Origin: Symbiodinium sp. CCMP2592
Lineage: Eukaryota > Sar > Dinophyceae > Suessiales > Symbiodiniaceae
Assembly (NCBI GenBank): GCA_905221615.1
Contig: CAJNDT010003535.1
Span: forward strand, 560,001 to 624,000
DNA length: 64,000 nt
Reading direction: 5' to 3'
Shown here: positions 540 through 64,000 of the stretch, in pieces
Layout: every line of letters begins with the position of its first letter
How positions within the stretch are numbered: the first letter of the stretch is position 1
Translations under genes and position numbers: made by a program
Notes under the pieces: model-generated
Databases searched by the model: none
Told to the model about the DNA's origin: nothing
The model's input: the letters and a program-made list of their open reading frames with translations, nothing else

Positions 540-812
540 GTCTACGATGGCCAGGTGCTGGGCCGTTGCATGGACGGCTGGCCCCGAGATGAAGATCAGG
601 TGGGAGTTTCCAAAAAACAGGAACTCTAACATTGTAGCCTAAACAGCAGGATCATTAATATCAGGACCCCAAATACGTTACCCCCCAATTTTCGGAAACT
701 CTAAACCCTAAACCCTTTGTAGAACCCTCAAAGATCCCTTTAAGGGACCGGAAACTCCCAGGTCACCGGCCGGTATGGCGTGACGCCATCCTTCGACTGG
801 GACCCGGAGAGG
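540..812 (+). CDS. Two exon-like segments split by a family-A element
   Basis: Segment 540-599 (after AAGCAG) and segment 762-812 are open in a common phase 0 frame. The join at the GT (600) and AG (761) reads ...GWPRDEDQ then VTGRYGVTPSFDWDPER. The 162-bp gap is a degenerate family-A inverted-repeat element whose left end supplies GT-GGGAGTTTCC and whose right end supplies GGAAACTCCC-AG. Frame continuity across the element is the main support. Function unknown; a second donor at 813 (GTGGAG) leads into the TTTATAGGG array. Confidence 0.5.
600..761. mobile_element. Family-A introner-like element (copy A1)
   Basis: Ends are GGGAGTTTCC and GGAAACTCCC, and it also has an internal copy of the right end near 695 and CCCTAAA tracts. 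It coincides exactly with a GT-AG intron between two in-phase open segments. Confidence 0.55.
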
Positions 813-837
813 GTGGAGAGTCTAGGGGTTTGGTTTG

Positions 838-1170
838 GGGTTTATAGGGTTTATAGGATTTATAGGGTTTACAGGGTTTGTAGGGTTTGTAGGGTTTATA
901 GAGTTTATAGGGTTTTTAGGGTTTATAGGGTTTATAGGGTTTATAGCGCTTGTAGGGTTTGTAGGGTTTATAGGGTTTATAGGACTTATAGGGTTTACAG
1001 GGTTTGTAGGGTTTGTAGGGTTTATAGAGTTTATAGGGTTTGTATGGTTATTGGATTTATAGGATTTATAGGGTTTATAGGGTTTGTAAGGGTTTCTAGG
1101 GTTTGTAGGGTTTGTAGGGCTTGTAGGGATTATAGGGTTTGTAGGGTTTGTAGGGTTTGGGGTTTAGGGT
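838..1170. repeat. Degenerate (TTTATAGGG)n array
   Basis: Nine-base units TTTATAGGG and TTTGTAGGG repeat about 35 times, with single-base variants. This is a telomere-like derivative (TTTAGGG with two extra bases). The Gly/Phe/Ile and Arg/Val/Tyr frames are repeat artefacts. From about 1185 to 1376 nothing firm was seen. Confidence 0.9.
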
Positions 1171-1376
1171 TTAGAGAAAGATGCTTTACTCGGATCTTGT
1201 TGCAGACATGTATGTCTGCGCTGGGGTTCCATGCTAGATTTAGTTACCTAGTTTGGCTCATGCCCTAAACCCATGACGCAGAGACCAGAGCCCAATGCCT
1301 GCATGAACCCTCAGGACCTTAGGATCATGCCTTAGCGAACAGCACAGTAAGACTAGACACTCTCTTTTTTGTCTAG

Positions 1377-10411: not shown

Positions 10412-10454
10412 AGGCTTGATGCTGTCATATTTGGGATGTGGGGCTATACTCCCC

Positions 10455-10545
10455 CAGACTCCACTATCCCTTAATTTAGGGGTTCTACTATGGTTTAAGG
10501 ACACTTAAGGTATATTCCTTGATTGAGGGATTTTGGACGCTCTGG
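10455..10545. mobile_element. Family-B inverted-repeat element, degenerate
   Basis: Arms CAGACTCCACTATCCCTTAA and TGAGGGATTTTGGACGCTCTG flank a short core. Confidence 0.5.
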
Positions 10546-12168: not shown

Positions 12169-12179
12169 GCAGATCCCAG

Positions 12180-12247
12180 AGACTCCAATATCCCTTAATT
12201 TCTATAACTTAGGGTATATTCCTTAATTAAGGGATATTGGAGTCTCT
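12180..12247. mobile_element. Family-B inverted-repeat element (B1)
   Basis: AGACTCCAATATCCCTTAAT at the left and ATTAAGGGATATTGGAGTCT at the right form a near-perfect inverted repeat with a short core. Partial B arms recur at 12270-12380. Confidence 0.8.
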
Positions 12248-12386
12248 GGGATGTTGCTTGGGTCCCACGGACTCCAGCATCCCTTAATTCACTAAGCAAT
12301 ACTCAGGGTTGGGGCTCCTTTAAGGGATCCTTTAAGGGATCTTTAGGGTTTAGGGTTTATGGGACTCCAATATCCCTTAACTTTTT

Positions 12387-14405: not shown

Positions 14406-15600
14406 GTGAAGCTGCGGACAGCTGTGATCACGAGCCTAAGGAGGGTTTCCATTAACCCACACATAGCTCCTGTCAAAAACGAGCTGCAAATCCACTTTCC
14501 ACCCTGTCAGACAAGCAAGTTTTCTCGTAAAATCCCGAAACCCCAAACCGCAAAACAACAAAACAGACACAACTCTAAATCTAAACCCTAAACCCTAATC
14601 CTGAACCCTAAACCCCAAACATCGCCTAAAACTCAGGTGCGGCTTCCCTGCGAGAAGAAGGCTACCCGTGCCTTGGGTTCGAGTGGGAAGACGGCAGACC
14701 AAGAGCCAAACTTGGGGGGGTGATTTAGGAGTTTAGGGTTTAGGGCTTTGGGGGTGAAGGTTTCAGGATTCAGGGGATTTACGATTTCGGGCTTTAGGTT
14801 TAAGGTGCCGGGCTTTTGGGGTTTTAGGGTTTAGGGTTTAGTTTAGGTTTTGCCACTCTTCTTACAGTCCAAAAGAGTGGGGGGGGTTGGAAGAGGGGAA
14901 GCCCTGATATTTGTTCTCAGCTGTTTTTTTCGTATGCTCCTGACAGTTGTAGTTGGTTCGACATGCAACACGCCGCTACCCTAAGCCTAAACCCCAAAGT
15001 TAGCATATATCAATCCGAACCGCCCCCCTGAGACCCCCGACCTGTTACATGCTCCCGTCGGCTTTTTCCGCATTGTAGAGGCCAGAGATTTGGAGCATCT
15101 TCATGTTCGTGCCCTTGCATGTCCCGGGGCCAGCCTTATCTCCTGTTTTCAACTTCTCTGCATACCCGAGAGGCTACGAGCTTCAAAGTTGGAATTTCAG
15201 CGTCGGGTGAATTCCCAGGCTCATGAAGGGGACCTGAACCTCTGAGTTGTAGGAATTCGTAGATGAAACCACCGCACTAGATAATAGAGCCAAACTTGGG
15301 GGGTGATTCAGGAGTTTAGGGTTTAGGGCTTTGGGGGTGAAGGTTTCAGGATTTTGATGAAGATCCCAACGAGTTGAAGAAGAACCTTCAACAGCCAAAG
15401 TTGATGTGAACATCCAGCTTCTAGATGGGAGTTTCCGAAAATTAGGGGTACCTTATTTTGGGGTCCTGATAACAAGGATCCTACTATTTAGGGTACTGTA
15501 TTAGGGTCCCCTATTTTCGGAAACTCCCACATGCAGATATGTCAGCTGTTGCACTGGCATCCGTAGATGTCTCACCTAGCAGGGATCACCAAAACTCTTC
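14406..15600 (+). CDS. Cluster of exon-like segments, unknown protein
   Basis: Five or six plausible plus-strand exons lie close together: 14406-14510 (VKLRTAVITSLRRVSINPHI...), about 14635-14715 (SLREEGYPCLGFEWEDGRPR), 14867-14985 after CTTCTTACAG (PDICSQLFFSYAPDSCSWFD), 15031-15242 (about 70 codons, containing HAPVGFFRIVEARDLEHLHV), 15368-15424 (EEEPSTAKVDVNIQLL) and 15534-15600, which ends in a GTAAGT donor. The last two are separated by family-A element A2, and splicing it out keeps the frame. The stretch with FFRIVEARDL faintly resembles the start of a C2 domain. Not all phases were proven. Confidence 0.4.
15427..15529. mobile_element. Family-A introner-like element (A2)
   Basis: GGGAGTTTCCGAAAATTAGG at the left pairs with CCCCTATTTTCGGAAACTCCC at the right. 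The interior also pairs (GGGTCCT...AAGGATCC). Flanks are CTTCTAGAT and ACATGCAGAT, so the ends share an AT/GAT direct repeat. Confidence 0.9.
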
Positions 15601-15690
15601 CGTAAGTGTCCATGTGCCCAAGTAGTACATACTGTGGCCCCAAAGTGCTTATACTGGGACGACTTCACAGAGTATTTACTCTTTGGGCCT
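15601..15690. mobile_element. Family-E element beginning at a GTAAGT donor
   Basis: Starts GTAAGTGTCCATGTGCCCAA, a family-E terminus, immediately after an exon-like frame. The right arm is degenerate. Confidence 0.5.
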
Positions 15691-16341: not shown

Positions 16342-16347
16342 GTTCAC

Positions 16348-16450
16348 AGAGACTCCAAAATCCCTTAATTAAGGAATATTCCTTAAGTTATAGTAGGATC
16401 CCTTATATGATTTAGGGTATATTCCCTAATTAAGGAATATTGGAGTCTCT
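16348..16450. mobile_element. Family-B inverted-repeat element (B2)
   Basis: AGAGACTCCAAAATCCCTTA and AATATTGGAGTCTCT ends, core with GGATCC. It abuts a family-C element on the right. Confidence 0.85.
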
Positions 16451-16460
16451 GTGTTTACAG

Positions 16461-16795
16461 TACTTGGAGGTTCATGGGTAGTTATAAGGTTTCCTTAAGT
16501 TAAGGGTCCCTTTAAAGGGATCTATAGGGATTCTGTAAGGGTATAGGGTTCAGGGCTCTACTTGGAGTTTCATGGGTAGTTATAAGTTAGAAGGGCCCCC
16601 CCCCGCCCTGTAATAGTGATTACAAGGATTGTATTAGGGCCCTAATACAATCCTTATAATCGCTATTACAGGGTGGGGGCCCCTTCTAGGGTTTACAGTA
16701 CTTGGAGGTTCATGAAATGGGGTTATAAGTCCCCTGATATGGGTTATATGTATAGCTACCCCACTCATAACCCTACTTCGAACTACCCATGAACC
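16461..16795. mobile_element. Family-C inverted-repeat cluster (C1)
   Basis: Arms ACTTGGAGGTTCATGGGTAG and ACTACCCATGAACCTCC. The interior holds a second direct copy of the arm (16560), a long inner inverted repeat (CTAATACAATCCTTATAATC on both strands, 16600-16670) and a third arm (16690). Confidence 0.8.
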
Positions 16796-17022
16796 TCCGA
16801 GTAGAAGCCCATTTAGTGTTTAGGGTTAAGTTGGAAACCCGGTAGCTGCAATCCTTAAGAGTAATGTATAGGGAATCGCAGCACTGTCACTAGTTGGCTT
16901 TGATCCGGTTTCAATTTTATTACGGTGTTTACCATAGGGTGTTAGGGCTCTTTGTGGGGCGGTTTTACGGCAGCGTTTAGGAGGTCTCGTAGGGGCATCC
17001 ATCATTTGGTGCGGGTCAAGAT

Positions 17023-18031: not shown

Positions 18032-18148
18032 ACCTACAGTACCTATAGCCTCCATTGTAGTTCCTTTTCCAGGTTTTACCAAATATATAATTAGGGTCCT
18101 GTAAGGTAACGCCGAAAACGAACTGCATGCAATGGAGACTATAGGTAG
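18032..18148. mobile_element. Family-D inverted-repeat element (D1)
   Basis: CCTATAGCCTCCATTGTAGT and TGCAATGGAGACTATAGG ends with GTTCCTTTT / GAACTGC inner arms. An exon-like segment (NRDLKAFRPHRRAPGH, donor GTGCCA) follows at 18155-18208. Confidence 0.88.
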
Positions 18149-18420
18149 GGGTCTAAGAACCGGGATCTCAAAGCATTTCGGCCGCATAGGCGGGCTCCTG
18201 GTCATAGCTCAGGTGCCAGGTATGCAGGCTTTATGGGGTGGGGGTTTATCGAAGGGGAAAGGGAGGGACCCTTAATGGGGAGCCCTACCCCCTACCCTCT
18301 AATGGGCTACAAAATTAAAAATGGGTATATAATGGCTACATTAAGGGTATATACCTAGGGGTCCTTATTAAGGGTCCCTCTTTTTACCCTTGGAGTTTAG
18401 GCCTTCGGGTTTAGGGTTTT

Positions 18421-18559: not shown

Positions 18560-18807
18560 GTATCGTCTTGTGACACGCTCGCAAGGATAGCTCATGCCCT
18601 TTTATACGAATCCGCCACATGCTCTGGCTGTCAGCACAAGACAAGAAAGCCTAAGCCCTGAAACCTAAACCCTAAAGAGTGTCTGCAAGCATTGACCCAT
18701 GAGCCTTGAAGCAATCCATGCGAGGGATCGTTTAGGGTTTAGGGTTTAGGTTCCTGGAGAACAACAGCAGAAGCCACTTCCAGCCAAAATCTGACGTCCA
18801 CGACATA

Positions 18808-19016
18808 GGAGTTTCCGAAAATGGGGTACCCTAATAAACTACCCTAAATAGTAGGATCCTCATTATAAGGACCCCGCAAAAAATTACCCTTAATTGTTCG
18901 GAAACTCTAAACAAAAAAACCATTTAAAGACCCCTTATAGATCCCCTTAACGGAACCCTATTTAAGGATCCCTTCAAAGGAACCCTAAGGTACCCTTAAT
19001 TAAATCGGAAACTCCC
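18808..19016. mobile_element. Family-A element (A3), two-part
   Basis: GGAGTTTCCGAAAATGGGG at the left, an internal TTCGGAAACTC near 18900, and TCGGAAACTCCC at the right. Upstream 18749-18802 is protein-like (FLENNSRSHFQPKSDVH); downstream 19021-19075 likewise (HELLRMAPGALNCQNS). Confidence 0.85.
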
Positions 19017-30627: not shown

Positions 30628-30633
30628 CCAAGA

Positions 30634-32249: not shown

Positions 32250-32259
32250 GGGTACCCAG

Positions 32260-34222: not shown

Positions 34223-34897
34223 CAGTATATGTTCTGTCTGACAGAGACAACCAATGCAAGACACCACATGAGGGCTCCAGCCTGGGTCAAGCTGGTCCAG
34301 TTCTTGATCTTCGTGGCTGAGGCACACTCAGGGCTTCGAATTTTTGGGCTGGGTATTAGGGTTTCGGCTTTGGGGTTTATTGTGGGGATCGTGGATAAGA
34401 GAATCCATGGGGACGGGAGAAGGTTCGCCTGGAATGCATCGGTTTCAGGATTTCGGGGTCCACAAATTAACTCAGGCCCGGGTATTTGGATTTTTGGGGC
34501 TTCGGGCCTGCTGAAACTGAGGGCTTTGGCGTGTGTGTTGTAGGGTTTAGGACATGGATGTGATACGGTTTTAGTGTTTATGGGATTTAGGGTTTATTAT
34601 ACGTAGGGTCTGTTAAAGCTGCTAAAGGGGATTGGGTTTAGGAGTTATAGGTTGGTTTTAGGCGAGAGCCCATAGGGTTACGGTTTATAGGGTTTTTATG
34701 TAATATCGGGACCTTAAGAATTGCATGTTTCTGTTTTGGGGGTTCCTGTTTAAATTTATAGTGTCAATGGGCCCTAAAACCCTGTTCTAATAATAAAGGC
34801 CCCTACATTAGGGTCGATGTGCTTTTGGGTTTGGGGCCTTGGGATTTGGATTCAAGGACTCGGCAAGTGGAGCTTCAAAGGGGGAAGGAGCAGATCC

Positions 34898-34998
34898 TGT
34901 GGTCTCCAGTGTAGTTCCTTGTTTTGGTTTAACTTATGACTGTACATAATTAGGATCCTATAAGGTAACACCAAAAGGAAGTACAATGGAGATTGTAG
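34898..34998. mobile_element. Family-D inverted-repeat element (D2)
   Basis: GGTCTCCAGTGTAGTTCC and GGAAGTACAATGGAGATTG arms. Upstream sequence (34855-34893) is weakly protein-like. 33510-34900 otherwise shows no firm gene. Confidence 0.8.
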
Positions 34999-35550
34999 GA
35001 TGTTTCAATCATAACTGACCTTCCTTAGACGTTTAGGGTTTCAGGGCCTTACGGACTTTCGATTGCAGCAGATTTAGGTCAAGGTTAGGTTAGTTTTCGG
35101 GAGACAGCAAAGTTGAACCAGATTCAGGTGTACATCCTGTGCTATGTCCTGCGTGCCCATGTGTCTCAGCAGCAATGCTGAAAGGAGCGGAGCCCCAAAG
35201 CAGCAAGCTCGAGGCTTAAGTTATAACCTCAAGCAGCCAATTATCGGGACATGCTGAGATGTTCCCGTTGTTGCTAGCATCATGCCATCTGTCTATGTAT
35301 AATTATCACCACCATCTTCCTGTGTGACTGACTGCAACTGCAGGCCTAACGATAGACCGCATCTCGATCGACCCATGGTTGGGACTCGCAATATTCTTGG
35401 AAAGCCTTAAAGACAAAGGCGTGGGCCCCAAAGGACCTTGTTTTGGGTAATGATTTTTCTGAGATGACAGTTAAATACAATTACCCCAAACCTCGTTCTA
35501 AGTATGGCACCTACACTGTCCTAAACCACATCTACAGTCGGGACTTCTAG

Positions 35551-35898: not shown

Positions 35899-36466
35899 GG
35901 GGGGAACCATAATTAGGAATCCTTCAAAGGTAGGTTTTGTCGGCTGGTCAGACCTACACGACGAGGGCTCAAGGGTCAGGGTTTTGGAAGGGAGATCCGA
36001 GATGAATCCCGAGGTTGCGACTTGGGGGCCGAATGCAGGGGCCTGGTTTTAGGGTTTAGGGCTTTAGGGTTTTAGGGTTTAGGGTTTAGGGTTTTAGGGT
36101 TTAGGGTTTTAGGGTTTTGGGGTTTAGGGCTTTGGGTGGTTTAGGGCCCTAAACCCTGAACCGCTTTAAGCTTTCTGTGGGAGATGACTGTCTTAAAGTA
36201 TGCGTACCATCAAGGGATACTACTGACACTTCCAACCACAATTTTCAGGCCAGTATTATCGGACCCTAACCCCCGAACCCTGAACCTCTGAACCCGAAAT
36301 CCCAAATTAGATTTATCAGAGGGGAAGGGCAGCAGCAAGAAAAGAGCCCGCCAATTCTTACATGAACAGAAACTAAACCCTAAACCCTAAACCCTAAACT
36401 CCAGAACATAATATCCGCGGGCTCGGAACCCAAGAGCCCCCAATGTCTGTAAGTTACAACCCTAGG

Positions 36467-36560
36467 GCTCCATGTACCCATATAGTATATACTTATGCCT
36501 TAAAGTACCTATATAGGGACCCCTTGGAGGCTTAAGTATCTACTATAAAGGTACATGGAG
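36467..36560. mobile_element. Family-E inverted-repeat element
   Basis: GGGCTCCATGTACCCATATA and GGTACATGGAGCCTTTGGG arms. Confidence 0.85.
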
Positions 36561-36599
36561 CCTTTGGGAAAGCCTTATAGACCCTAGAAGCCTAATCCC

Positions 36600-36693
36600 A
36601 GGCATCGAAGCTCGACGATTGCCGCAAGCCGCGCAGCATGCAATCGGCAGACTGGTCCTAGGTATGTTGATTGCTGTTTCCGGAATATACCTA
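36600..36693 (+). CDS. Exon-like segment with hydrophobic stretch
   Basis: After TCCCAG one frame reads IEARRLPQAAQHAIGRLVLG then MLIAVSG, directly before family-D element D3. After D3 a second segment (36835-36931) reads QHWPHGNSRTNRVVDPLSRH then VMTTIFLPFRDMLG. Together they are faintly like a helix plus loop of a cation antiporter, a weak guess. Confidence 0.3.
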
Positions 36694-36694
36694 T

Positions 36695-36807
36695 AGTCTC
36701 CATGGTAGTTCCGTTTTTTGGTTAACCAGCTTTATGGTTAGGAAGTTAGGATCCTATAATAGACTTGTTGGCTAACATAAAAAGAGGAACTGCAATGGAG
36801 ACTATAG
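36695..36807. mobile_element. Family-D inverted-repeat element (D3)
   Basis: CCTATAGTCTCCATGGTAGT and CTGCAATGGAGACTATAGG ends. Confidence 0.9.
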
Positions 36808-37057
36808 GTACGGCACTTCCTGGCATCTCCTAAGCAGCATTGGCCCCACGGGAATTCCAGAACGAACCGCGTGGTGGACCCTTTGTCAAGACATGTCATG
36901 ACCACCATCTTTCTTCCCTTCCGGGACATGCTAGGGAGTTCATAATCATGTGAGTCGTAGTTTGGGGTCCCAGGCTGTTCGTCCGAAGGATTGCTTGCTT
37001 TGTCAGGCCTTGCATGGGTGTGAAGGATACTGAAGTCTGTCTGTCAGCATAGGCGAT

Positions 37058-43540: not shown

Positions 43541-44012
43541 TAAGGGTGTCTGTGTTTTCGCAGCACCATCTAGGCTCAAGTCGAGTTTCTGTCATTATTG
43601 TTCAGGTGCCTCTGTGAGTCATGAGCTGGGCTGACATGACAGAGGAGGCTGGGGCAAGACAATCAATGATAGTTGCAGAACAATAAAGGCTTACATGAGT
43701 TCTTGACAGGACTCAGACTGCCAAAGCTTTTGGGCTGCTTGCCAGTTATCCTGATTGTTTTTTCAAGAAGCAGTTGTTAAGCTAGGCCATGCAAACATCT
43801 CAGGCCGCCCTGTTGGAGACTGAGACTGAGCAAGTGGCTCGAATGCACATTTGAGTTAATGTAGTGTGTCAAAATCAAACGGGTTTAGGCTAAGATCCTT
43901 CTCCTTGCATACCAGGTCATGTGGTACTGGCCCCAGCAGCCAGCCCACGAGCACAGCAAGAAGGAGAGAAAGAAAAAGAAGCTTCAGGAGAAAGCTAAGC
44001 TGGAGAAAAAGA

Positions 44013-44098
44013 TGGGGACCCTCGTCTAGCACCCTAAATTGTAGGATCCTTGCCTTAAGGTCCCCCAAATAAGCTACCTTGAATTTTCGGAAACTCCC
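44013..44098. mobile_element. Family-A element, left arm degenerate
   Basis: The core AATTGTAGGATCCTTGCC and right end TTTTCGGAAACTCCC are typical; the left arm is lost. Confidence 0.6.
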
Positions 44099-44340
44099 GT
44101 ATAAGGCCCTTCTATAACCCCCCAAGAACCTGTTTTTGGTTAGGTTCTTATAACAGGGCCCTAAAAAAGATAGGTTCTTTGGGGTTAAAGTCTGCCTTCG
44201 CAGCCACAGCGCGGAGCTCAAGGATCAGGGTTCGTAACCCACTGCAGCCTTAAGGGCCCATGTTCCCAAAGAGTCTATATTACGGGTTTCTTTAAGGGCT
44301 CCTGTTAGGGTTCCTAGAAGGTTCTTTAGGGTTTAGGGTT

Positions 44341-44515
44341 GAAGGGTCCATGTACCCAAGTTGCATACATTGGCCTCAAAAGTAGTCCCTACCTAGACCC
44401 TCCATCTACCCTCTATTGGACCCTAGATGCCCCTTATTTGAGGGTACAAGGAGGGTCCTGGTACATAGGTACTTCGGGGCCGAAGTATATCTATAGTTTG
44501 CAGACATGGAGCCTT
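44341..44515. mobile_element. Family-E element, expanded
   Basis: AAGGGTCCATGTACCCAAG left arm, GACATGGAGCCTTCG right arm. The core has an extra AGGGTCC-bearing inverted repeat. Confidence 0.65.
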
Positions 44516-44522
44516 CGACTGC

Positions 44523-44648
44523 CTATAGTCTCCATTGCAGTTCCTGTTTTTGGGATTTTTGGATTACCTTATAGGGTCCTCTATATACATATGGTTAAAT
44601 CCAAAAAGGAACTACAGCGAAGGAACTACAGTGGAGACTGTAGGTAGA
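44523..44648. mobile_element. Family-D inverted-repeat element (D4)
   Basis: CCTATAGTCTCCATTGCAGT and ACTACAGTGGAGACTGTAGG ends. The right inner arm is duplicated (GGAACTACAG twice). The segment after it (44669-44750) has two open frames, one reading PEAELQQSAAVQNRQTLATP. Confidence 0.9.
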
Positions 44649-45025: not shown

Positions 45026-45211
45026 TACCTATAGTCTCCAATGTAGTTCACAAATACAAATAAGGATCCTATGAGGTAACTCCTAAAAGGAATGTGTGGT
45101 TGTCAAAATTATGGTCCCTTTTGGGGTCCTTATTAAAATACGGCACCTTATATTTAGGGTACCCAAAAAGGAACCCTAATTTTGACAACTACCCGAATTG
45201 CAATGGAGACC
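45026..45211. mobile_element. Family-D element with a nested family-G element (copy 1)
   Basis: D arms ACCTATAGTCTCCAATGTAG and TGCAATGGAGACCATAGG enclose a complete G element (45107-45194, GGTTGTCAAAATTATGGTCC ... TTTTGACAACTACCC). Confidence 0.9.
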
Positions 45212-45235
45212 ATAGGCAGAGTTTATAGGGTGAGT

Positions 45236-45451
45236 TACCCATAGCCTCCAATGCAGCTCCTTTTTATGGTTTTACCAAGTATGATAAGGATCCTATAAAG
45301 TAACTCCTAAAAGGAATGGCTGCTTGTCAAAATTATGGTCATTTTCGGGGTCCTTATAAATAAAACGGCACCTAATATTTAGGGTGCCCCAAAAGCGACC
45401 CCAATGTTGACAACTACCCGAATTGCAATGGAGACCGTAGGTAGAGTTTAT
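45236..45451. mobile_element. Family-D element with nested family-G element (copy 2)
   Basis: Same composite as 45026-45211 in tandem, diverged at scattered sites, with GGTGAGTTACC also repeated at its left edge. Confidence 0.9.
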
Positions 45452-47365: not shown

Positions 47366-47369
47366 ATAT

Positions 47370-47460
47370 GGGAGTTTCCGAAAATAGGGAACCCTAGTAT
47401 AGTACCCTAAATAGTCGGAGGACCCCAAGAGAAGGTAACCCCCAATTTTCGGAAACTCCC
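47370..47460. mobile_element. Family-A inverted-repeat element (A4)
   Basis: GGGAGTTTCCGAAAATAGGG and CCCAATTTTCGGAAACTCCC ends; flanks ATAT and ATGT. Confidence 0.92.
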
Positions 47461-47812
47461 ATGTAGCTTGAGTGTAAGCGACTCAGTCAGCCAGGTCAAG
47501 CACCTCAGAAAGTGGATGAAGCTGGATAGGATAGAGGATTCTTTACGCAAGGCCTCGTGATCGGGATGGCCGCGCCTACCCGCCCTAAACCGAACCCCGA
47601 ACCCCCAAACCCCTTGGCCCTAAACCCGTTCATCCCACCGCTGGAGTGATTCGACTTCGAACGCACAGTCCTCGTCGACCCGCGGAGCTTTCGACAATGA
47701 GAACTGCCCGAAACCCGAAATCAGCCTGCCCACGAGGGCTCTTTGTGACAGATGCTGTGGAAAAAGGCTTTCAAATGCCTTCAAAGTAAGCTACAACCAG
47801 CCCCAACCCCTT

Positions 47813-48186: not shown

Positions 48187-48273
48187 TGTTGGCAATTGTT
48201 CATGCTTCTGCAGTAGCTTGGGTTGAGGGTTCCGCCACGAGCAAGGTACTTACAGCTATACTTCTAGTACCCA

Positions 48274-48372
48274 ATGGGTCCAAGTACCCACATCGTATAT
48301 CCTTTGGGCCCAATGTACCTATATAGGGAGTAGTGTAAGGCCAAAGTATTTACTATTTGGGTAGATGAACCG
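48274..48372. mobile_element. Family-E inverted-repeat element
   Basis: GGGTCCAAGTACCCACATCG and TTGGGTAGATGAACCGTTAG ends with GTACCTATATAGGGAGTA core. 48480-48700 is CCCTAAA-like. Confidence 0.85.
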
Positions 48373-48903
48373 TTAGGGTTAATGTCAAGGCAGCGCGCGA
48401 GGGCTGCTCTCGTGAAGCCCTGGTTCTTTGGCCCTGGTCCTCGTTCAATCTGAGCCGCAGGAAGAACTTCAGCTATGGACTTGAACCAGTTGCCCCATAC
48501 CCAAACCCCAAACCTAAACCCTAAATCCAGAGCCTTGTAAACCCATTAAAAGCCCTAAATCCAAGACCCCAACAGACCGATCATAAGCCCTAAATCCTAA
48601 ACCCCAGAAACCGTTTATAAACCCTATATACTAAACCCTATAATTACAAATCCTAACCCCTAAACCCTACATTTATATACTCTAAACCCTAAACCCCGAA
48701 GCCCAAAGATGAAAGTTCAGGGACCTGTTTGGGGTTTGCGGTGCTGTTGCAAGCAGGAGAAGCTGAGCGAGTTGGAAGAGCAGCCGAAGCCTGAGAGGGG
48801 AGATGCAGAGACCCACGTCCCATCGAAACTCTGTGCTTCTTGAGATTCTGTAGACAAGCCGCAGTCCGATTCGAGGACTTTTGAGGGCTATTGCAGCTCG
48901 AGA

Positions 48904-50072: not shown

Positions 50073-50202
50073 TTGAAGGCTTGCAAGATCACAGGTTGGA
50101 GTGGTGAGGTGTTCGACCACAGTGTTAGCTATCTTTACATGAGGCTCCCTTTTAAGGTCCTGCTTGTGAGGGTGCCGTACTGTTTTTTGGGACGAAAATA
50201 CC
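50073..50202 (+). CDS. Exon-like segment before a family-E element
   Basis: Open frame ACKITGWSGEVFDHSVSYLY then MRLPFKVLLVRVPYCFLGRK, running into family-E element. After the element an open stretch continues to 50411 or 50544 depending on frame (for example EDPTSESSSHAQLSCRASDK). The element itself is 105 bases and open in frame, so retention and splicing are both possible. Confidence 0.42.
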
Positions 50203-50308
50203 CTAAGGGTCCATGTTCCCATATAGCCTATACTTTGGGCCCAATGTACCTATATAGGGAGTACTTTAAGGCCAATGTATATACTATAAGAGTACATGGA
50301 CCCTTAGG
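50203..50308. mobile_element. Family-E inverted-repeat element, type copy
   Basis: CTAAGGGTCCATGTTCCCAT at the left and GTACATGGACCCTTAG at the right, with AGTACCTATATAGGGAGTAC-like core. The ends contain TAAGG and TTAG. Confidence 0.92.
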
Positions 50309-50892: not shown

Positions 50893-50998
50893 CTTAGGGA
50901 CCCAAAAAGCACATAAGCATAAGCTTCATTATAAGGGGATTTAATGGGATATCCCTCTCCAGATTTTTGCTTATGTGCTTTTTGGGGGCCCTACAAAC
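50893..50998. mobile_element. Single-copy inverted-repeat element (family K)
   Basis: GGGACCCAAAAAGCACATAA and TTATGTGCTTTTTGGGGGCC ends, about 100 bases apart. A weak minus-strand frame (51004-51267, HKYVCSNRCKNCESNVSFVS) lies to its right. Confidence 0.8.
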
Positions 50999-51850: not shown

Positions 51851-51925
51851 TTCTGCAATGTGAGAGTTCCATAAGACTAGGCACCTTATACAGGGGCCCT
51901 TATAATGGTAAATTTAGTCTTGCGA

Positions 51926-52025
51926 GTTTCAGACAATCAGGAGGGGTACCGTATTTTGGGGCCCTTGAACATAAGGATCCTACTATTTAGGGCACGATAT
52001 TAGGGTCCCCTCACTTTACGTGACG
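51926..52025. mobile_element. Family-A element, degenerate
   Basis: Core GGGGTACCGTATTTTGGGGC and AAGGATCCTACTATTTAGGG are family-A-like. Arms are eroded; a left arm GTGAGAGTTCC lies at 51860. Confidence 0.55.
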
Positions 52026-53074: not shown

Positions 53075-54418
53075 ATGCCGCCCAAAAAGAAGGGCGGCAA
53101 CCCTGTGAAAAGGACTATAAGAGGGACCCGAAGTTAGACATCTCCCCTATATTTTAAATACCAATACAAGTAACAATCATGATGACAACAATAATCGTAA
53201 CAGTAATAATTGTAATAATAATAGTAAGAATAACTAATAGTAATATCAATGATAATCATAATCAGAACTACAACAACCCCCCAAGGGTCCAAGTACCCAA
53301 TAGTCATATACTCTCCCAAATCCTAACCTACATAACTACTATCCTAAAGCCGAGTACTTGATTATTGGGTCCTTTGGACCCTTGGGGTTAATTTAGATTG
53401 CCACGATAGGGATAACTATTATTAATAATAATGATAATGATACTCAGAACTATAATCCCCTAACCCCTAAAACCCTAAAGCCCTAAACCCCTAAAACCCC
53501 CTAAACCCTAACCCCTAAACCCCTAAAACCCTAAAACCCTCAACCCCTGAACCCTCAACCTCTAAAGCCCTAAACCCCTGAACCCTAAACCCCTAAACCC
53601 TAAACTCTAAATAAACCCCTAAACCCTAAACCCTAAATAAACCCCTAAACCCTAAATAATGATTAGTCTACTGCCATCCTCCAGGCCCTGCAGAAGGCGA
53701 TGGTGCCAGTGGAGGCGAGCACAGATACCGACCTGCGCGAAGTTGTCTTTACGAGGGTGTACTGTACTTGGAGGTTCATGGGTAGTTATAAGTAGGGTGA
53801 TAAGTAGGGTAACTATACTTATAGCCCAGATTACTCGGGGACTTTTGACTCCACTTGTAACTACCCATGAGCCTCCAAGTAAGGCCTCTAGTCACAGGCT
53901 CCACGGTAGTTCCATTTTGGGGTTACCTTATAAGATCCTAAGCGATTATTATCTACCTTATAGGATCCTAATTATGAAACACAAGAAGGAACTACTATGG
54001 AGCCTCTAGGTAGTAGTCTGTCGGGTTTAGGGCACTAAGCTTCAACTGCCCATCGCTTCTACTATCTCCGTGGGCCCCGAAGCTAGCAGACAGGATCTGA
54101 CTCAGTGTGCATTGCCATGCGATGTGGAGATACGGTTGATGATATAAATCCTGCATTACCCATAATAAGGAATATACCATAATTCCCATAGTCTATGGTC
54201 CTTAAGGTAGTGCAGGATTTATATCAACAACCGTATTCAGACAAGTTGTCAGACCAGGTGATGAAACTGGCCCTCACAAATTTCAGAAAGTCTGGATGAT
54301 CTACTGTTACTGCCGACTCGATCGATCATCGGAGCCTTTGGGCGCATCATACTCCAAATCCGAATTCATCAGGGTGTGTCGGGTTTTGCAGCATTGCACC
54401 TCCGTGGGCTGCATGCGT
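53075..54418 (+). CDS. Four-exon gene, unknown function (partial)
   Basis: Exon 1 53075-53104 (MPPKKKGGNP, GT donor), exon 2 53685-53756 (ALQKAMVPVEASTDTDLREV then VFTR, between CCTCCAG and GTGTAC), exon 3 54040-54134 (STISVGPEASRQDLTQCALP then CDVEI), and exon 4 54241-54418 (RPGDETGPHKFQKVWMIYCY then SKSEFIRVCRVLQHC). All junctions are GT-AG and the phases (0, 0, 2) keep one frame. The introns are made of CCCTAAA tracts and elements of families I, C, D and F. A lysine-rich N-terminus suggests a nucleic-acid or nuclear protein. A later exon may lie at 54452-54617. Confidence 0.5.
53281..53391. mobile_element. Family-I inverted-repeat element
   Basis: AAGGGTCCAAGTACCCAATA and TTATTGGGTCCTTTGGACCC ends. 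A close copy is at 55444-55541 with the same core (CCTAACCTACATAA). Confidence 0.85.
53765..53881. mobile_element. Family-C inverted-repeat element at an intron start
   Basis: TACTTGGAGGTTCATGGGTA begins eight bases after the exon 2 donor; the right arm is CTACCCATGAGCCTCCAAG. Confidence 0.88.
53888..54012. mobile_element. Family-D inverted-repeat element
   Basis: CTCTAGTCACAGGCTCCACG and CTACTATGGAGCCTCTAGG ends; the CTTATAGGATCCTAA core is duplicated. Confidence 0.8.
54135..54240 (+). mobile_element. Family-F element forming a GT-AG intron (F2)
   Basis: Starts GTTGATGATATAAATCCTGC and ends CAACAACCGTATTCAG. Excision joins exons 3 and 4 with a 60-codon open continuation. Confidence 0.65.
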
Positions 54419-55322: not shown

Positions 55323-55443
55323 TCTGGTTTTGTGTAAACCCTGCATTGGTCCCGAAGCACTGCACAGTGGATGCAGCGAGCTCGGCTGCAGCACATGCTG
55401 ATAGGCGCAATGCACGCAATGCAAGTCCGAATGCCGTCCCCCC

Positions 55444-55541: not shown

Positions 55542-55600
55542 CCCCAAGCCTGAAGCACCAAGCCCTTTATCAGGAGCCCCAAACCCTCAACCCTAATTGG

Positions 55601-55693
55601 AGGTTCATGGGGTTATAAGTCCCTAATATTGGCTATAAGTATAGTTACCCTACTTATAACCCTGCTTATGACTACCCATGAACCTCCAAGTAG
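55601..55693. mobile_element. Family-C inverted-repeat element
   Basis: TTGGAGGTTCATGGGGTTAT and ACTACCCATGAACCTCCAAG ends. Confidence 0.92.
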
Positions 55694-57208: not shown

Positions 57209-57452
57209 CAGCGCAGCATGGGCTGCAATAAGAATTCGAGGGCTTAAGTACAGAAGTGTGGGATTTGGTCATCAACAAACCCTACATAGACCCGAAACCC
57301 CTAAACCCTAAACCTACAGATCTTGTTGAAGGTTAGGAGGCTTAATGAGCTCAGGTGGTAAAGGGACCCATCCCAGGGATATACTCTGGCCTTGAAGTAT
57401 CTGTGTAGGATGGTAGGAAGCCCTTCAAAGCCTAAGTAGACAATGTGCCATT

Positions 57453-57550
57453 GTTGATGATCTAAATCCTGCATGACCCACAATAAGGAATATACCATAA
57501 TTCCCATAGTCTAGGGTCCTTAAGGTAATGCAGGATTTATATCATCAACC
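57453..57550. mobile_element. Family-F inverted-repeat element (F3)
   Basis: GTTGATGATCTAAATCCTGC and GCAGGATTTATATCATCAAC ends with the shared TATGGTATATTCC-type core. Confidence 0.92.
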
Positions 57551-57638
57551 GTAGTTAGGTACATGGAACCTTGGGATCATAGATTGTCAGATCCCTTCCC
57601 ATACACGCGACTCCTGCTGTTGATGTCAAGTGTGTAAT

Positions 57639-60600
57639 ATGGCATCAGTGGTTTTGCACACAAACTCCACCGCTGCATTCCAGTCTCAGTCTCACGAAAG
57701 CTTGCGGTTGCTCCAGATTTCTGACTCCGAAACCATACAGCTAAACCACGAATCATAAGCCTAAGACCCGAAGGCCTACACTCTAGACCTTTCTTTGCTC
57801 TCTCCAGGTTCTCATGGTCGAGCCCACTGGCTTTTGCTCCAATGATGAGACAATGCAGGATCTTTGAAAGGTTTAGGCTTACATAGGGTTCCGGGAAGCG
57901 TTTTATAAGGCTTCCCAAGGGGTCCATGTATCCATGTGGTAGATACATTGGCCGTAAAGTAACTAAACCCCCAAAAGTAGGTAAAATAGTGGCCCCAAAC
58001 CTATACAAGGCCATTATTCTACATATTTGGGGTCCAGGTAGTCCTTACATAGATGCTGTCAGGCCAAAGTACATGCTGTACGAGTATCTGGACCCTGTGG
58101 GTTCCACAGCGGTTATAAGGCCTTATACGGTTTGTAACATAGGGATACCGCGTTTTGAAGGTGCCTTTAGTCCGGACTGTAGTAAACAGGCTCTTTGGTC
58201 ATGCTTTTGATATTCACGATCACGAACAGCATCCACGTAGTGGCATAGTTGTTAGGACTCTATAAGACGCGGTCCTCAAACCGCAAACTGATGCTTGTCG
58301 TACTCATGATCAAGGCCAGTGCTTTTACGCGTTTTATTGGCAGCTTCATCGCTATGAGGCGGGCAAAACATGTTTGTCACATCTTTCTGCGGCAACCGTG
58401 TTCGTTCGTTGCCGCGCCGTAGTAAGTATCCTTCAATTCAGGCCGCCCTTTGCCACCAGCTCCAAACCCCCAACTACACTCTTATCAACACTATCCCCAA
58501 ACTCCTTGAAACACCAAGCCCAACAGAACGAAAGTTCCAACCTCGACAAAGCTCTTGACGCCCAACTCCTCAAACTACTAGCGCCGAAGCCCAGAAGTCC
58601 GTGAAAGCTGGATTCCCCAAAATCCCCGACCCTAATCCGCTTCATTTGACTCATTGGCCATAGCTGGGCATACGAAGTTCGGGTCTCTACGTATTCCTCG
58701 TGGTTTTTCCAACCCCGGACTTATAACTTGCAATCCAAAGCTCAGAAACAGAAAGCCGTGATTTCGACTCTTTGGGCTTTTAGGGCTTTGAGTGCTTCGG
58801 GTGTTGGGGGCTCACCTCAGCCTAGCAGACCTGAAGCAATGCGGGAGTTTCCATAAAATGAAGGGTACTTCATTTCTGGATCCTTATAATAAGGATTCTA
58901 CCATTTAGGGTACTAGTCAGGATCCTCATAATAGGGATTCTACCATTTCGGGTACTATTTTGCCCTCCCCCCATTTTCGGAACCTGCCCCCCCCCGTCAT
59001 GTCGCAGGACAACAAGTTTATGAAAAGCATGGATACCCCGACGACCGTGGAAGAGCTGAGGCTCCTCACTACTGGGTTCTCTGATGGGCAGCGGGGACTA
59101 CTTGCAGGTTTTTTTGGGTAGTTATACGGCGTCCTTCGAGGGTCCCTTTAAAGGGATCTATAGGGGTTCTATAAGGGTATAGGGTTTAGGGTCTGCTTGG
59201 AGGTTCATCGGTAGTTATACGTGGGGGCTAGAAGTCCCCTAATATGGGTTATAAGTATAGTTACCCTACTTATAACCCTACTTACAACTACCTATGCACC
59301 TCCATATAGGGTTTTACTTTCAATTTCTGGCGCTTGTGCTACTACTATGACTAGCATCGCCGTCACCATCATCACCACCATCCTCATCATCGGCACCCGC
59401 ATCAACGTCATCATCATCATCATCATCATTATCGTTATCACCGAGGAAGTGGCAGCAGTCGCAGTGACACTGAGATAGCTGCGATACTGAACGCATTGGT
59501 AGCGGCAGTGTTGTGGTTGCAATCAATAGTTGTTTCGCAAGTCTGTTCGCCGTCGGTTTTGCCGTAGTAGAAGCAACCGCAGAAGAGCCAGAACTTAGCA
59601 TGAACCGTCATCATCATCATCACCATCATCAATACCACTTCCACACCATCATGATCAGTATCATCACCAATGGCATGCAGACATGCTTTCATCAGCTTCC
59701 GGTATTACCGTATTACCACAAGAGAGACGAATAAATCACAAACCCTCGACGCTCAAAGCCATGCCCTGCACTTCACAGAGACCTTGGCAGTTCTTGACAC
59801 CCGAAGTTTCCAAAGGACGCAGAAGTTGGGTACTTGGTTCAGGGGCTTACGGCTTCAAGGGTTTAGGTTTTTAGGGTTTCGGCGGTTTAGGGGGCTTAGG
59901 ATTGTTTTCGTTGTTGGCGAGTCTTTTTCGGGAGTTCGTGATAATTAGGTACTTGGACCCTCAGGGTCAGGTACAGCTTTGCTCCAAAATACGGGACCCA
60001 GACTGATGGTTTCTCTTCAGATCCGAAACCTATGCGCACCCTCATGCCATCCCTCTTACGGTTGATGATATAGACCCCGCATGACCTTAAGGACCCTAGA
60101 CTATGGGAATTATGGTATACTGTGGGCAATGCAGGATTTATATCATCAACCCTATCTCCACATCGCATGACAATTCACACTGAGTCAGATCCTGTCTGCT
60201 AGCTTCGGGGCCCACGGAGACATTAGATGCGATGAGCAATGCAGGATTTATATCATCAACAGTAGGAGCCCGGGAGCATGTAGCATAACTTTTTCCACAG
60301 CCCGCGACCCCAACAGAAATCCAACTCCAGAGCCTTAAAGTGACAAAAAAGGCTTTAACCCTAAACCCCTAAACCCTAAACCCTATTAGGATCCTTATAG
60401 AGCCCCGCTAGAACCCCACCCCAAAAACCTAGCTCCAGAGCTATCAAAAGACAAAGAGAAGCCTATTAGGATCCTTATAGACCCCTACCCTAGTAGTCGA
60501 GTAGGTAACCTTTGACTTTTTTGGGGTAGTATAGTCCCTATATAAGCCCTATATAACCAAAAATGTTAACCTCTAGTTCCCCTGACAAATAGGCTACTAC

Positions 60601-63600
60601 AACCCGAATAGAACCTTACGGATCCCTTAGAGGAGCCCACACCCGAACCTCCCGTTTCTGAACTCAGGGCCGCGGCGATGGCTGAGTGGCAGAATCTCGT
60701 AGAGTTACTCAGAGAAGCCGGCGTGGAAGTCCTCACCGCGGAGGCCAGTGAGGGCTCAGAGTTTTGGGTTCAGGGTTCGATAGTTAGTAGGGTATAGGGT
60801 TGCGGGTTGTGGCTTGGGGTTGTATTTAATTTTGGCCAGCTATAGTTTAACCCTAAATCCTTGGCCGAAGCCGCTTGAAATCCTAAACTCCTAAACCCTA
60901 GCAGAGTTGGTAAGGGCTCAGCCGGGTTCCCAGAACTCTGCAAATATCCCCCAAATAAGGAATATATTCTAAATGATAGTAGGATCCCTTATATGCATAC
61001 CCTAAACCCTATAGATCCCTTCTAGATCTCGTAAATATTATAGAGGAACCCTATCACTATGCAGGTATTCCTTCCTGAAGAGATATGGGAGTCTCCTACA
61101 ATCGGGGACCCGAATCTAGTATGCTAAATAGTAGGATCCTTATTATAAGGGCTCCAACATAAGGTACCCCTAAATTCTCGGAAACTCTGAGCCCTAAACC
61201 CTTTAGAGATCCCTTATAGCTCCCTTTAAGGAACCCTATATAAGGATCCCTTTAAACGTACCCCAAATTTTCGGAAGCTCCCATATGGGTGGTTGTCAAA
61301 ACTAGGGTCCCTTTTTGGGTCCCTATTATAATACGGCACCTATTATTCACGGTGCCCCAAAAAGGAGCCTTAATCTTGACAACTACCCAAATTGCAATGG
61401 AGACCATAGGTAGAGTTTATAAACCCTAAACCCTAAACCCCTAAACCCCTAAACCCCTAAACCCTAAACCCGGGCCCACAAAAAAAAAAGAAAAAACTAA
61501 ACCCAACTCCCATATCACTATGGGCTATTAGACCCTAAAGATCCCTCTTAGGACCTTATTAAGGGTAGGTTAAGGTACCCAGAAGGTCTAATAGCCCATA
61601 GTGGTATGGAAGTCTCTGCGCAGTAGGCTTCAGGCGAGGCAAGGGCTGGATTTCGGACGTTTCCGGCTGCGCTGTGCTTGGAGGAGGTTTTTTTGGGGTA
61701 GTTATAAGGGTTCCCTTAAGGGTCCCTTTTACAGGGATCTATAGGGATTCTGTAAGGGTATAAGGTTTAGGGCTCTGCTTGGAGGGGGTTTCGGGTTTTT
61801 AGGGCTTTTCGGGTTTAGGGAGTATAGGGTTTATAGGGCTTAGGGTTTCGAGTTTTGCCTCAGGTTTTGGCTTGGGCTTCTGCGCGGGCTTGGAGTTTAA
61901 GGTTTTGGGAGTCTAATTGCGGGTTTCGGGTTTAAAGGCCTTAGGCTTTGCAATTCCGGGGTGTGGGGATCGGTTTCGAGATTCCTGAAGCATGCAGTAT
62001 TGGCTTGCGTTTGAGGGATGTAGGTCTTGGGATGAACTAACTTATTTCGAAGGGCAGGGGCTCCTGTAATACTTTCACTGTAATACACTCCTTCTAAGAC
62101 TCCCCAGACCCTATGCTATTTGTTGACTTCTATTGCGTTTCGGCTTCAGGATTTAGGGTTTGGGGTTTGTCAGGTTAGAGATACGGGTTCAAGGTTTAGG
62201 GTTTATGCCCAAAAGTTCATGGTTTAGGGAAAAAGGTGCGTGCCAATCACGATGCCCACGTTCTAAACACTGATTTCCGGATTTTTACAGCCCGAACAGT
62301 TAGCAACTACCAAAATACTCCCAGTGGCCATTCTTAGGACGAGGATGCCGTAACATTTCTTCGGGTGTTCAAAGTTTGCGGGTCAGGGTTTGCTTGACAT
62401 CGATATACGACGTACACCTTTCTCCTCCAATTATGGAACTGCATAGATCCCCCTGTAGAACCAGGGAAAGAGCCCTCTGAAGAGCCTGTGCGAACGCCCT
62501 TCTCTATGTATCGAGGCCCTTATACTACCCGAAACCCCAACTAAATTCCCGAGCATAAATCCGGGAGCTCAATCAACTCTGAAAGCCTTACCGTAAGTGT
62601 CCTTTGTCCATGCACCTATATAGCATAGACATGGGCCTTAAAGTAGTCCTTATTATAGGTACTTTAGGGCCAAAGTGTCCGGACCCTCCACCTTAGTATA
62701 ACCCTATGTAAGCCCTTAAATCCGAAGCTCTAAGTACTATATCCCTAAGCCCAAACACGATAACCGGTTCTAAACCCTAAACCCTTAATTCCTAAGCTCT
62801 TACTAGGTTTGGATTTGGAGTAACTTTTTGTTCCCTTTCACTACAGAATCCTAGTTACAAGCAATTCTGCAAACCGTCGAAATCGGCACCCACACAGCTT
62901 CGGCTCTATTCCTCAACCCCTGAATCCTAAGCCCACAGAAGCCCACAGCTTCGGCTCTTCCTTAATTCGGAGGCTCAGGGGCTTCCAGACGAGGTCTTTC
63001 CCAACAACTGGCGCTCCGGCAGTGGGGTCATATACGAAGCGGGCCGTTAAGAAGTAATAAGAGTCTTCTAGGGTAGAGGGTGACAACAAAGCGCTCTATG
63101 CAAGAAGGAGTAAGGGTCTTCTAGCGTTTGAGAAGTGCCGGGCAGCGGATGTTATAATGCTCTATCTGGTTTTCTGTGCAGGAGAAGCATTCATTCTGGT
63201 GCGTTTATGCACGTTTCAACATGACCCGCAAACAAGCGCCCATCACTATTTTGAGTGTTTATATGATTTTATATGCGCATGGTACATGTGCTGCTAATAT
63301 ATTTTTGTGCGACATGACTCCCAGGTGGTTATTGGGCTCGTACTGCAAGCACTCAGAGGCATCCTACTCCTCTAACATCCTCTGACATGCTAAACTGCAT
63401 AGGGCACTGGTTGAGGGCTTAGAGATCAGAGTCAGAAAGACAATCTCACATTGTTCGGGAATTGAGTTTAGAGTTCAGGTTGCGGTGTCGGTGATGGCAG
63501 AAACTCTCTGATCACGACTGCTTGTCCACAGGTCTGCATCTCCCTCGGGGAGTGGGCAGGCACAAGGTAGCAATGCCGTTGTAATTACATATGCAGTTGG

Positions 63601-63946
63601 TGAGACTGACACTTAGGATGTAGGACCCACCCACATCATTAGTTGTCAGGGCGGGACGTCCAGTTAGCAGCCACATAATGCCGTAGGTGTTTATTGCAGG
63701 CAGTGTGTGCGGTTACCACTATTTCCAGACAAGAGCTATCTATACTCGGTGCCGCTAAGCAGTCGACCAGCTTTTGGAAAGAGGCTTCGCAACCCTTCTG
63801 CCACAACTGAAGCCTTAAACCCCAGAATTCCTGAAACCCTAAACCCGATGCCCTAAACCGGAACCTTCATGTCTCGAGGAAGCCGACACATGGAGCTGAG
63901 GTTCTCCACGCACGGCGATGGACGCTTGGTGATTTATCCGATGAAG
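57639..63946 (+). CDS. Amidinotransferase-superfamily hydrolase (CtlX-like), 3' end outside window
   Basis: Exons that fit the family in order: 57639-57740 (N-terminus from ATG, less certain), 57808-57858 (VLMVEPTGFCSNDETMQ), 59008-59087 (DNKFMKSMDTPTTVEELRLL), about 60668-60743 (AEWQNLVELLREAGVEVL), about 62973-63010 (GLPDEVFPNNW) and 63901-63946 (FSTHGDGRLVIYPMKV). Together these reproduce the conserved start of guanidino-group hydrolases: LMxxPxxFxxNxET..DN, a Leu/Val helix ending GVEV, then PDxVFPNNWFSTHxDG. Such enzymes deiminate or transfer the guanidino group of arginine-like substrates; the catalytic His and Cys would lie beyond the window. The joins imply GA, GC, GC and GC donors with AG acceptors (for example CAG|GATCTT..GCAG|GAC and TG|GCGCTC..CTGAG|G). 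Introns are 0.8-2.2 kb and contain families A, C, D, E, F, G and L. Confidence 0.7.
57916..58096. mobile_element. Family-E element, expanded, in amidinotransferase intron
   Basis: GGGGTCCATGTATCCATGTG and GTATCTGGACCCTGTGG ends. An inner inverted repeat (CCCCAAAAGTAGGTAAAATA / TATTCTACATATTTGGGG) suggests a nested element. Confidence 0.75.
58849..58985. mobile_element. Family-A element (A6) near an intron acceptor
   Basis: CGGGAGTTTCCATAAAATGA and CCCCCATTTTCGGAACCTG ends; the core GGATCCTTATAATAAGGATTC is duplicated. It ends about 20 bases before the CAG acceptor of the 59008 exon. Confidence 0.85.
59097..59304. mobile_element. Family-C element near an intron donor
   Basis: ACTTGCAGGTTTTTTTGGGT left arm, a second arm at 59197 (CTTGGAGGTTCATCGGTAG) and right arm ACTACCTATGCACCTCC. 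It begins nine bases after the exon end at 59087. Confidence 0.82.
59340..59640. repeat. (CAT)n-rich low-complexity region
   Basis: CAT/ATC triplets at 59360-59435 and 59610-59632, with two long overlapping open frames between. It lies in an intron of the amidinotransferase gene, so these frames are not called. Confidence 0.85.
60061..60150. mobile_element. Family-F inverted-repeat element (F4)
   Basis: GTTGATGATATAGACCCCGC and GCAGGATTTATATCATCAAC ends. A further half-copy is at 60237-60260. Confidence 0.9.
60151..60236 (-). repeat. Inverted duplicate of the 54.05 kb exon segment
   Basis: On the minus strand this reads IASNVSVGPEASRQDLTQCE, nearly the same as exon 3 at 54040-54134 (about 5 differences in 70 bases), and is likewise followed by a family-F element. 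A minus-strand open segment continues beyond F4 (RDGMRVRIGFGSEEKPSVWV, 60058-59965). Confidence 0.85.
61089..61275. mobile_element. Family-A element, two-part (A7)
   Basis: GGGAGTCTCCTACAATCGGG, internal TCTCGGAAACTC, and TTTTCGGAAGCTCCC ends. Confidence 0.85.
61291..61412. mobile_element. Family-G element plus right half of family D
   Basis: GGTTGTCAAAACTAGGGTCC ... TTGACAACTACCC, then AATTGCAATGGAGACCATAGG. It matches the right part of the composites at 45 kb, including the trailing CAGAGTTTATA-like sequence. Confidence 0.9.
61507..61612. mobile_element. Single-copy inverted-repeat element (family L)
   Basis: CCCATATCACTATGGGCTAT and ATAGCCCATAGTGGTATGG ends with a GGTACC-bearing core. 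Confidence 0.85.
61676..61785. mobile_element. Family-C element, direct-arm type
   Basis: CTTGGAGGAGGTTTTTTTGG left arm, shared core (GGGATCTATAGGGATTCTGT) with 16461 and 59097 copies, and CTTGGAGGGG at the right. Confidence 0.75.
62593..62690. mobile_element. Family-E element beginning GTAAGTGTCC
   Basis: GTAAGTGTCCTTTGTCCATG left arm, GTGTCCGGACCCTCCACC right arm. Confidence 0.7.
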
Positions 63947-63976
63947 GTGGGAGGTTCAGGACTGTAAAGTCAGGAC

Positions 63977-64000
63977 TTTACCTAGAGTCTCCATTGTAGT
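63977..64000. mobile_element. Left arm of a family-D element, cut by window end
   Basis: ACCTAGAGTCTCCATTGTAGT matches the family-D terminus. It follows the 63901-63946 exon in the amidinotransferase intron. Confidence 0.7.

Follow-up and report, generated by a model that had tools for sequence, protein, structure and literature searches.

Some of the best evidence that introns can arise from transposons comes from dinoflagellates. In Symbiodinium microadriaticum, introners, elements whose insertion makes an intron, are reported to bear inverted repeats and 4-bp duplications; a Symbiodinium example measures 115 bp by its coordinates, and the number of introner families per genome is put at one to 43 across eukaryotes (Gozashti et al. 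2022, PMC9860276). A review counts 12,253 introner introns in Polarella glacialis and 15 families that each comprise 100 introns or more (PMC11453091, citing Roy et al. 2023), and Amoebophrya introner elements are described with repeats of 8-20 nt at the intron ends and direct repeats of 3-5 nt over the junctions (Farhat et al. 2021, PMC7789003). Introner elements are also reported in introns of Prorocentrum cordatum and in Effrenium voratum. TA-targeting miniature inverted-repeat transposable elements (MITEs) of the Stowaway or Tc1/mariner type are small, carry no gene, and have inverted arms and a TA duplication. Here, we analyzed a 64-kb stretch of DNA (the window), which is very probably nuclear DNA of a dinoflagellate, one that is probably close to Symbiodinium, and found that its repeats are genuine: small inverted-repeat transposons of many families, densely packed. 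We consider it likely that they represent about a dozen MITE families in dinoflagellate non-coding DNA, which in the one gene with verified exons most likely entered introns that already existed.

The elements, which we sorted into lettered families (Table 1), resemble the S. microadriaticum introners in measuring about 100 bp, in possessing terminal inverted repeats and a short duplication (4 bp there, GAAT in our family H), and in a host that is probably related. They differ in that the verified splice sites here are free of element ends and in that the duplication made by families K and O is the 2-bp TA. As in P. glacialis, many families lie side by side. A first-pass annotation of this DNA had singled out the number of co-existing families as what stands out; however, multi-family dinoflagellate introners have already been published, including the 15 families that the review gives for P. 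glacialis, and the co-existence of many families in a dinoflagellate is thus already known. As in Amoebophrya, inverted repeats occur in dinoflagellate introns, but the arms here are about 18-50 nt long and sit inside long introns. With the TA-targeting MITEs, the elements share their small size, the lack of a gene, inverted arms, TA duplication (K and O), and TA ends (A, D, and E), while no transposase was seen here.

Inverted-repeat pairs with an arm score of at least 14, leaving out telomere-like and low-complexity arms, numbered 41 in the window, compared to a mean of 0.3 and a maximum of 1 in 10 shuffles that preserve dinucleotides in 500-base blocks. A 61-bp tandem satellite at 3.4-8.1 kb accounts for twelve of these pairs, and the other 29 are dispersed, with a median span of 109 bp (middle half 97-117). 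A scan with 13 arm sequences returned facing pairs for most arms and single arms for some. We built 13 family models, with A, B, C, D, E, G, H, and K drawn from two to five sequences and I, J, M, O, and P from one each; six of the families were also aligned. Model matches at an expectation value (E) of at most 1e-3 merged into 69 intervals, of which four were removed for matching another family better. The remaining 65 (G 17, C 10, B 8, D 8, E 6, A 5, H 4, K 2, and I, J, M, O, and P 1 each; 45 of at least 80 bp) depend on the merging rules that we chose, include 37 model-building sequences that match by construction, and count truncated or split copies more than once. The same models matched nothing in five shuffled windows. 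The elements are short and end in inverted repeats, as MITEs do, and dispersed copies were found for 8 of the 13 families, the other five being single-copy. The first-pass annotation was right that inverted-repeat elements are present in about a dozen families and no fewer than 45 copies, and each of the four positions it named carries an element: 601-702 (C), 54131-54235 (A), 15603-15689 (G), and 45026-45219 (D with H). Our family letters are not those of that annotation, and its A1, F2, and E correspond to our C, A, and G.

Nested copies revealed how some of these families insert. Reading target duplications by eye from alignments of nested and unbroken copies, we found that O (44390-44463) interrupts a G copy, where the intact form reads CTCCC-TA-TATAGG and the broken form GTCCC-TA-[O]-TA-CATAGG, with TA duplicated, and that K (57969-58034) likewise duplicated TA in another G. 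On the other hand, H within D, where the intact form reads GGAACTGCAATGG and the broken form GGAAT-[H]-GAATTGCAATGG, is flanked by a 4-base duplication, GAAT. The unbroken host forms of all three sites occur elsewhere in the window, and the duplications of K, O, and H are established against these empty sites. The composite of D and H occurs as two side-by-side copies (45026-45219 and 45236-45443) and a partial one near 61291-61413, which points to a single H insertion that was then copied. TA stands at both ends of 12 of the 18 copies examined among the 22 A, D, E, K, and O intervals (A 3/4, D 4/7, E 3/4, K 1/2, O 1/1), the remaining four intervals being arms or fragments. Duplication of TA on insertion is typical of Tc1/mariner-type transposons; K and O show it by comparison with an empty site, whereas A, D, and E point to it by their TA ends alone. 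Copies occur in both orientations (two and two for A; C on both strands within the introns of one gene), and likeness among A copies reaches 96%, while other families look more diverged.

Judged from these sequences, the elements are best described as non-autonomous DNA transposons, that is, MITEs, of what appear to be at least two insertion types. Each element, mostly 65-150 bp long, consists of two long inverted arms around a short core, without a gene of its own, and a transposase supplied from elsewhere would cut at the arm ends and insert the element. K and O duplicate TA as Tc1/mariner-type transposons do, and the TA at their termini suggests the same for A, D, and E; H duplicates the four bases GAAT and so probably depends on a different enzyme. 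Introns, other non-coding DNA, and the elements themselves all serve as landing places, in both orientations. The insertion rules given by the nested copies (TA; GAAT) could serve to sort the families by transposase.

The first-pass annotation had also proposed core motifs shared across families, which stood only in part. Family sequence comparison revealed that C and H are akin over the greater part of their sequences (E as low as 1.3e-8), while the likeness between other families is weak (P-C, 0.0012; B-A, 0.008; H-B, 0.009). Three motifs exceed their frequency in shuffles: AGGATCC (38 in the window versus 8.7, with 27 within elements), AAGGATCC (16 versus 2.5), and TTATAAGG (18 versus 3.2, with 8 within elements and 9 outside). 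The copies of AGGATCC and AAGGATCC that lie within elements occur only in B, C, and D. On the other hand, GGGGTCC shows no overall excess (16 versus 15.2), with 12 of the 16 in elements of several families. Together, these comparisons point to a few related families plus several unrelated ones, with no single core common to all.

Splice sites were fixed by homology in one gene, a DDAH/arginine-deiminase-like gene at the end of the window. Six-frame Pfam scans with stops masked, covering 10-20, 30-37, and 39-64 kb, pointed weakly to DDAH near 60.66 kb (E 0.0047), and a protein search with this stretch retrieved P0010 (E 3.7e-7), whose 732 residues include DDAH and arginine-deiminase domains. 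The contigs behind P0010 do not exceed 2447 bases, so that it is likely transcript-derived. A spliced model of five exons agrees with P0010, ungapped, in 84 of 88 residues. The verified exons are short (38-76 bp), their donors are in order GA, GC, GC, GC, and GT, and the ten splice sites are the two ends of each of the four complete introns plus the acceptor that precedes exon 1 and the donor that follows exon 5. Exon finding by codon score served only to choose stretches for searching; reversed DNA scored equal to most candidates.

The nearest element end lies 56, 37, 199, 333, and 32 nt from the five donors and 108, 22, 276, 294, and 79 nt from the five acceptors. At none of the ten verified sites, all from this one gene, does an element end fall within 10 nt, compared to a random mean of 0.80, and at one site an end falls within 25 nt, compared to 1.76; for this test, three element starts were added by hand (44339, 59098, and 63979), and random positions were drawn from 43401-57700 and introns 1-3. 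BLAST of the first and last 100 nt of the introns placed element likeness from nt 33, 39, and 46-54 behind three donors and stopping about 20 nt short of one acceptor. Among the other intron ends, two carry TTTAGGG-type arrays (one from nt 8), three have matches of 24-27 bases, and one has none. Element likeness directly at intron boundaries is absent in the verified gene, and its inset position is the pattern expected of insertions tolerated within existing introns. Since no element sits at a verified intron boundary, the elements most likely inserted into existing introns, in which they may be no more than passengers. The statement of the first-pass annotation that several elements begin or end exactly at apparent splice junctions is not confirmed here; element ends are no closer to verified sites than to random positions.

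That elements lie within true introns is borne out, as 14 of the 65 intervals fall in the four complete introns of this gene (890-2229 bp; split 5, 3, 6, and 0). Elements make up 19.5% of the length of these introns, at 2.4 intervals per kb. For three further stretches of non-coding DNA (10.25-19.9, 30.0-37.0, and 43.4-57.7 kb) the corresponding values are 13.5-15.4% and 1.4-1.7 per kb, a comparison in which split copies inflate the interval counts and the other stretches may themselves include introns. No interval falls in the tandem block at 2.8-10.25 kb, in a long terminal repeat (LTR) element, or at 37.0-43.4 kb. The claim that such elements fill the introns is thus partly true, as the verified introns appear somewhat richer in them than the other stretches. 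The nearly equal density in other non-coding DNA is a background that has to be subtracted in any search for introners, and an inverted-repeat element inside an intron is insufficient to call that intron an introner.

The first-pass annotation had called the elements introners, which would mean insertion into exons, with splicing at or near the element ends making the introns and the non-coding copies being other landings. We regard this as unlikely. Published dinoflagellate introners have inverted repeats and 4-bp duplications, and H is like them in both respects and similar in size; moreover, when 36 elements were spliced out in silico, any open frame ran across the joined flanks slightly more often than at random positions (83% versus 73%). 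However, the coding excess is not clear: a coding score of at least 0 was reached by 10/36 (28%, versus 18.7% of random positions), but at least 4 by 2/36 (5.6% versus 8.1%) and at least 8 by 1/36 (2.8% versus 2.5%). This flank test is weak because it needs 60 open bases on each side, while the verified exons measure only 38-76 bp, and because the codon model behind it drew its training data from one gene and the LTR element. The 36 elements included three of the four sites named in the first-pass annotation, leaving out 15603. Set against the ten verified splice sites and intron boundaries described above, elements in introns hold up, but introners are not supported where they could be put to the test, in the one gene with homology-fixed exons.

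The strongest remaining introner candidate is the A copy at 54131-54235, which lies between two open-frame stretches, one reading ...SVGPEASRQDLTQCALPCDVE and the other open in two frames. One database search with the exon-like stretch beside it (two candidates) returned no match, and a splice junction at this copy is neither proved nor disproved. The family A composite at 60057-60264 combines an entire A (60057-60154), some 80 bp of other DNA, and a second A terminal arm (60230-60264), and the 80-bp piece is also found at 54047-54130, directly beside the 54-kb copy. The two regions (60057-60264 and 54047-54235) are 87% alike over 189 aligned columns, A included, and at 54 kb the likeness ends at the A terminus, so family A looks as if it had carried off a neighbouring fragment. 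It is conceivable, though improbable, that several TA-targeting MITE families also make introns elsewhere and that A can carry off an adjacent piece of exon, as at 60057-60264; one element system would then both create introns and shuffle exons. Exact A-arm and B-arm patterns were absent from viral contigs. The A arm matched one bacterial contig among genome contigs, over 21 bases, which we took as chance because about 0.1 such matches are expected in 257 billion bases and A members match it over 13-24 bases only.

The verified introns could instead be old introners, made by elements and later grown by insertions and TTTAGGG-type arrays until their ends were blurred. Elements start 32-56 nt behind three of the five donors and stop 22 nt before one of the five acceptors. 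Direct repeats longer than AG/G span the junctions of intron 1 (GCAGGA, 57853-57864/59002-59013) and intron 3 (CGGAGGC, 60738-60749/62967-62978), part of which is expected since AG/G is the usual junction. However, 4 of the 10 sites having an element end within 60 nt compares to 3.25 for random positions, and 44% of 500 draws reach four, leaving this origin very improbable. That the repeats are hairpins from local inverted duplication or satellite drift, and not transposons, is hardly credible even in a window rich in tandem arrays with 12 of 41 inverted pairs in satellite, since arms and cores are common to dispersed copies across tens of kilobases and nested copies interrupt others with target duplication, which argues against local inverted duplication, rejected here as an origin.

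The reading of MITEs inserted into pre-existing introns has points against it as well. TA is palindromic, and TA ends alone are no proof of duplication; K and O rest on one empty-site comparison each, H represents one event copied with its host element, and the duplication is resolved for none of B, C, G, I, J, M, and P. No transposase was found in the six-frame Pfam scans of 10-20, 30-37, and 39-64 kb, and a genome-wide autonomous copy was not sought. In addition, the verified introns appear somewhat richer in element than the other stretches; the element ends 22-56 nt from four of the ten splice sites can be read as aged introners; and most of 10-20, 30-37, and 43.4-57.7 kb is without known gene status and could hide introners.

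Table 1. Inverted-repeat elements and verified exons in the window (first-pass names in brackets where they differ)
Feature	Position	Strand	Remarks
Family A	33404..33508	+	TA...TA; arm CGGTTGATGATATAAATCCTGCATTACC
Family A	54131..54235	-	opposite orientation (F2); adjoins exon-like unverified sequence
Family A	57449..57553	-	
Family A composite	60057..60264	+	intron 2
Family B	10454..10544	+	
Family B	12177..12248	+	
Family B	16347..16451	-	
Family B	30629..30731	+	
Family B	32131..32250	+	
Family B	60943..61095	.	diverged; intron 3
Family C	601..704	+	(A1)
Family C	15426..15529	-	
Family C	18807..18908	+	
Family C	44008..44098	+	
Family C	47369..47461	+	
Family C	51923..52020	-	
Family C	58843..58985	-	internal 42-bp tandem stretch; intron 1; match stops 22 nt before acceptor
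Family C	61086..61188	+	intron 3
Family D	18040..18147	+	TA...TA; arm CCTATAGTCTCCATTG
Family D	34894..35001	+	
Family D	36688..36810	+	
Family D	44520..44646	-	
Family D with nested H	45026..45219	+	H at 45098-45190; 4-bp duplication GAAT
D+H composite, second	45236..45443	+	H at 45322-45415; adjoins composite 45026..45219
Family D	53889..54012	-	
Family E	16699..16804	+	
Family E	53765..53881	-	
Family E	55594..55693	+	
Family E	59194..59309	+	intron 2
Family G	15603..15689	.	(E at 15601)
Family G	36461..36567	+	
Family G	48271..48377	-	
Family G	50202..50308	+	
Family G	53280..53386	+	
Family G with O	44339..44520	.	interrupted by O (44390-44463); TA duplicated
Family G with K	57915..58100	-	interrupted by K (57969-58034); TA duplicated; intron 1, 56 nt past donor
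Family K	32694..32759	+	
Family H	61291..61384	+	then D arm (61388-61413); intron 3
I	16600..16679	+	near-perfect palindrome; single-copy
J	61506..61613	+	single-copy inverted-repeat element; intron 3
M	50901..50986	+	single-copy inverted-repeat element
P	18249..18394	+	single-copy inverted-repeat element
Exon 1 (first one seen), DDAH/arginine-deiminase-like gene	57808..57858	+	
Exon 2	59008..59060	+	intron 1 = 57859-59007, GA..AG, 1149 bp
Exon 3	60668..60743	+	intron 2 = 59061-60667, GC..AG, 1607 bp
Exon 4	62973..63010	+	intron 3 = 60744-62972, GC..AG, 2229 bp
Exon 5	63901..63946	+	intron 4 = 63011-63900, GC..AG, 890 bp; GT donor next, gene leaves window

The rest of the window holds a nucleotidyltransferase-like gene (37127-39046), whose best named relative, from Symbiodinium pilosum, reaches 81% over 58% of the query; a nameless ENA protein reaches 89% over 67%, and Prorocentrum cordatum 49%. 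Together with the GA, GC, and GT donors of the verified gene and the frequent TTTAGGG-type arrays, these relatives make a dinoflagellate nuclear origin of the window very probable. The nucleotidyltransferase-like gene has a broken frame and an in-frame stop relative to its relatives and no clear intron, and it is perhaps a retro-copy. Searches of the window found no spliced-leader relic with up to three mismatches and no Rfam match at gathering scores, and two Pfam matches fell below their cut-offs (Lamprin, E 0.00095; DUF6653, E 0.058). The LTR retroelement (19924-30044) has an RVT_2 (copia-type) domain and LTRs of 366 bp that are 98.9% alike, and its 10 kb are free of MITE intervals. The 61-bp tandem satellite extends over 3431-8047, and its unit includes the palindrome TTGTCCTTTTCGGAAAAGGACAA. 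Arrays of the plant-type telomere repeat (ACCCTAA/TTTAGGG) occur at 2849-3082, 4832-5043, 5830-6155, 8969-9082, and 9904-10210 and in many shorter places, as well as at the two verified intron ends. Finally, a frame of 332 codons with FNIP repeats lies on the minus strand at 13127-14122 (Pfam E 2.2e-36).

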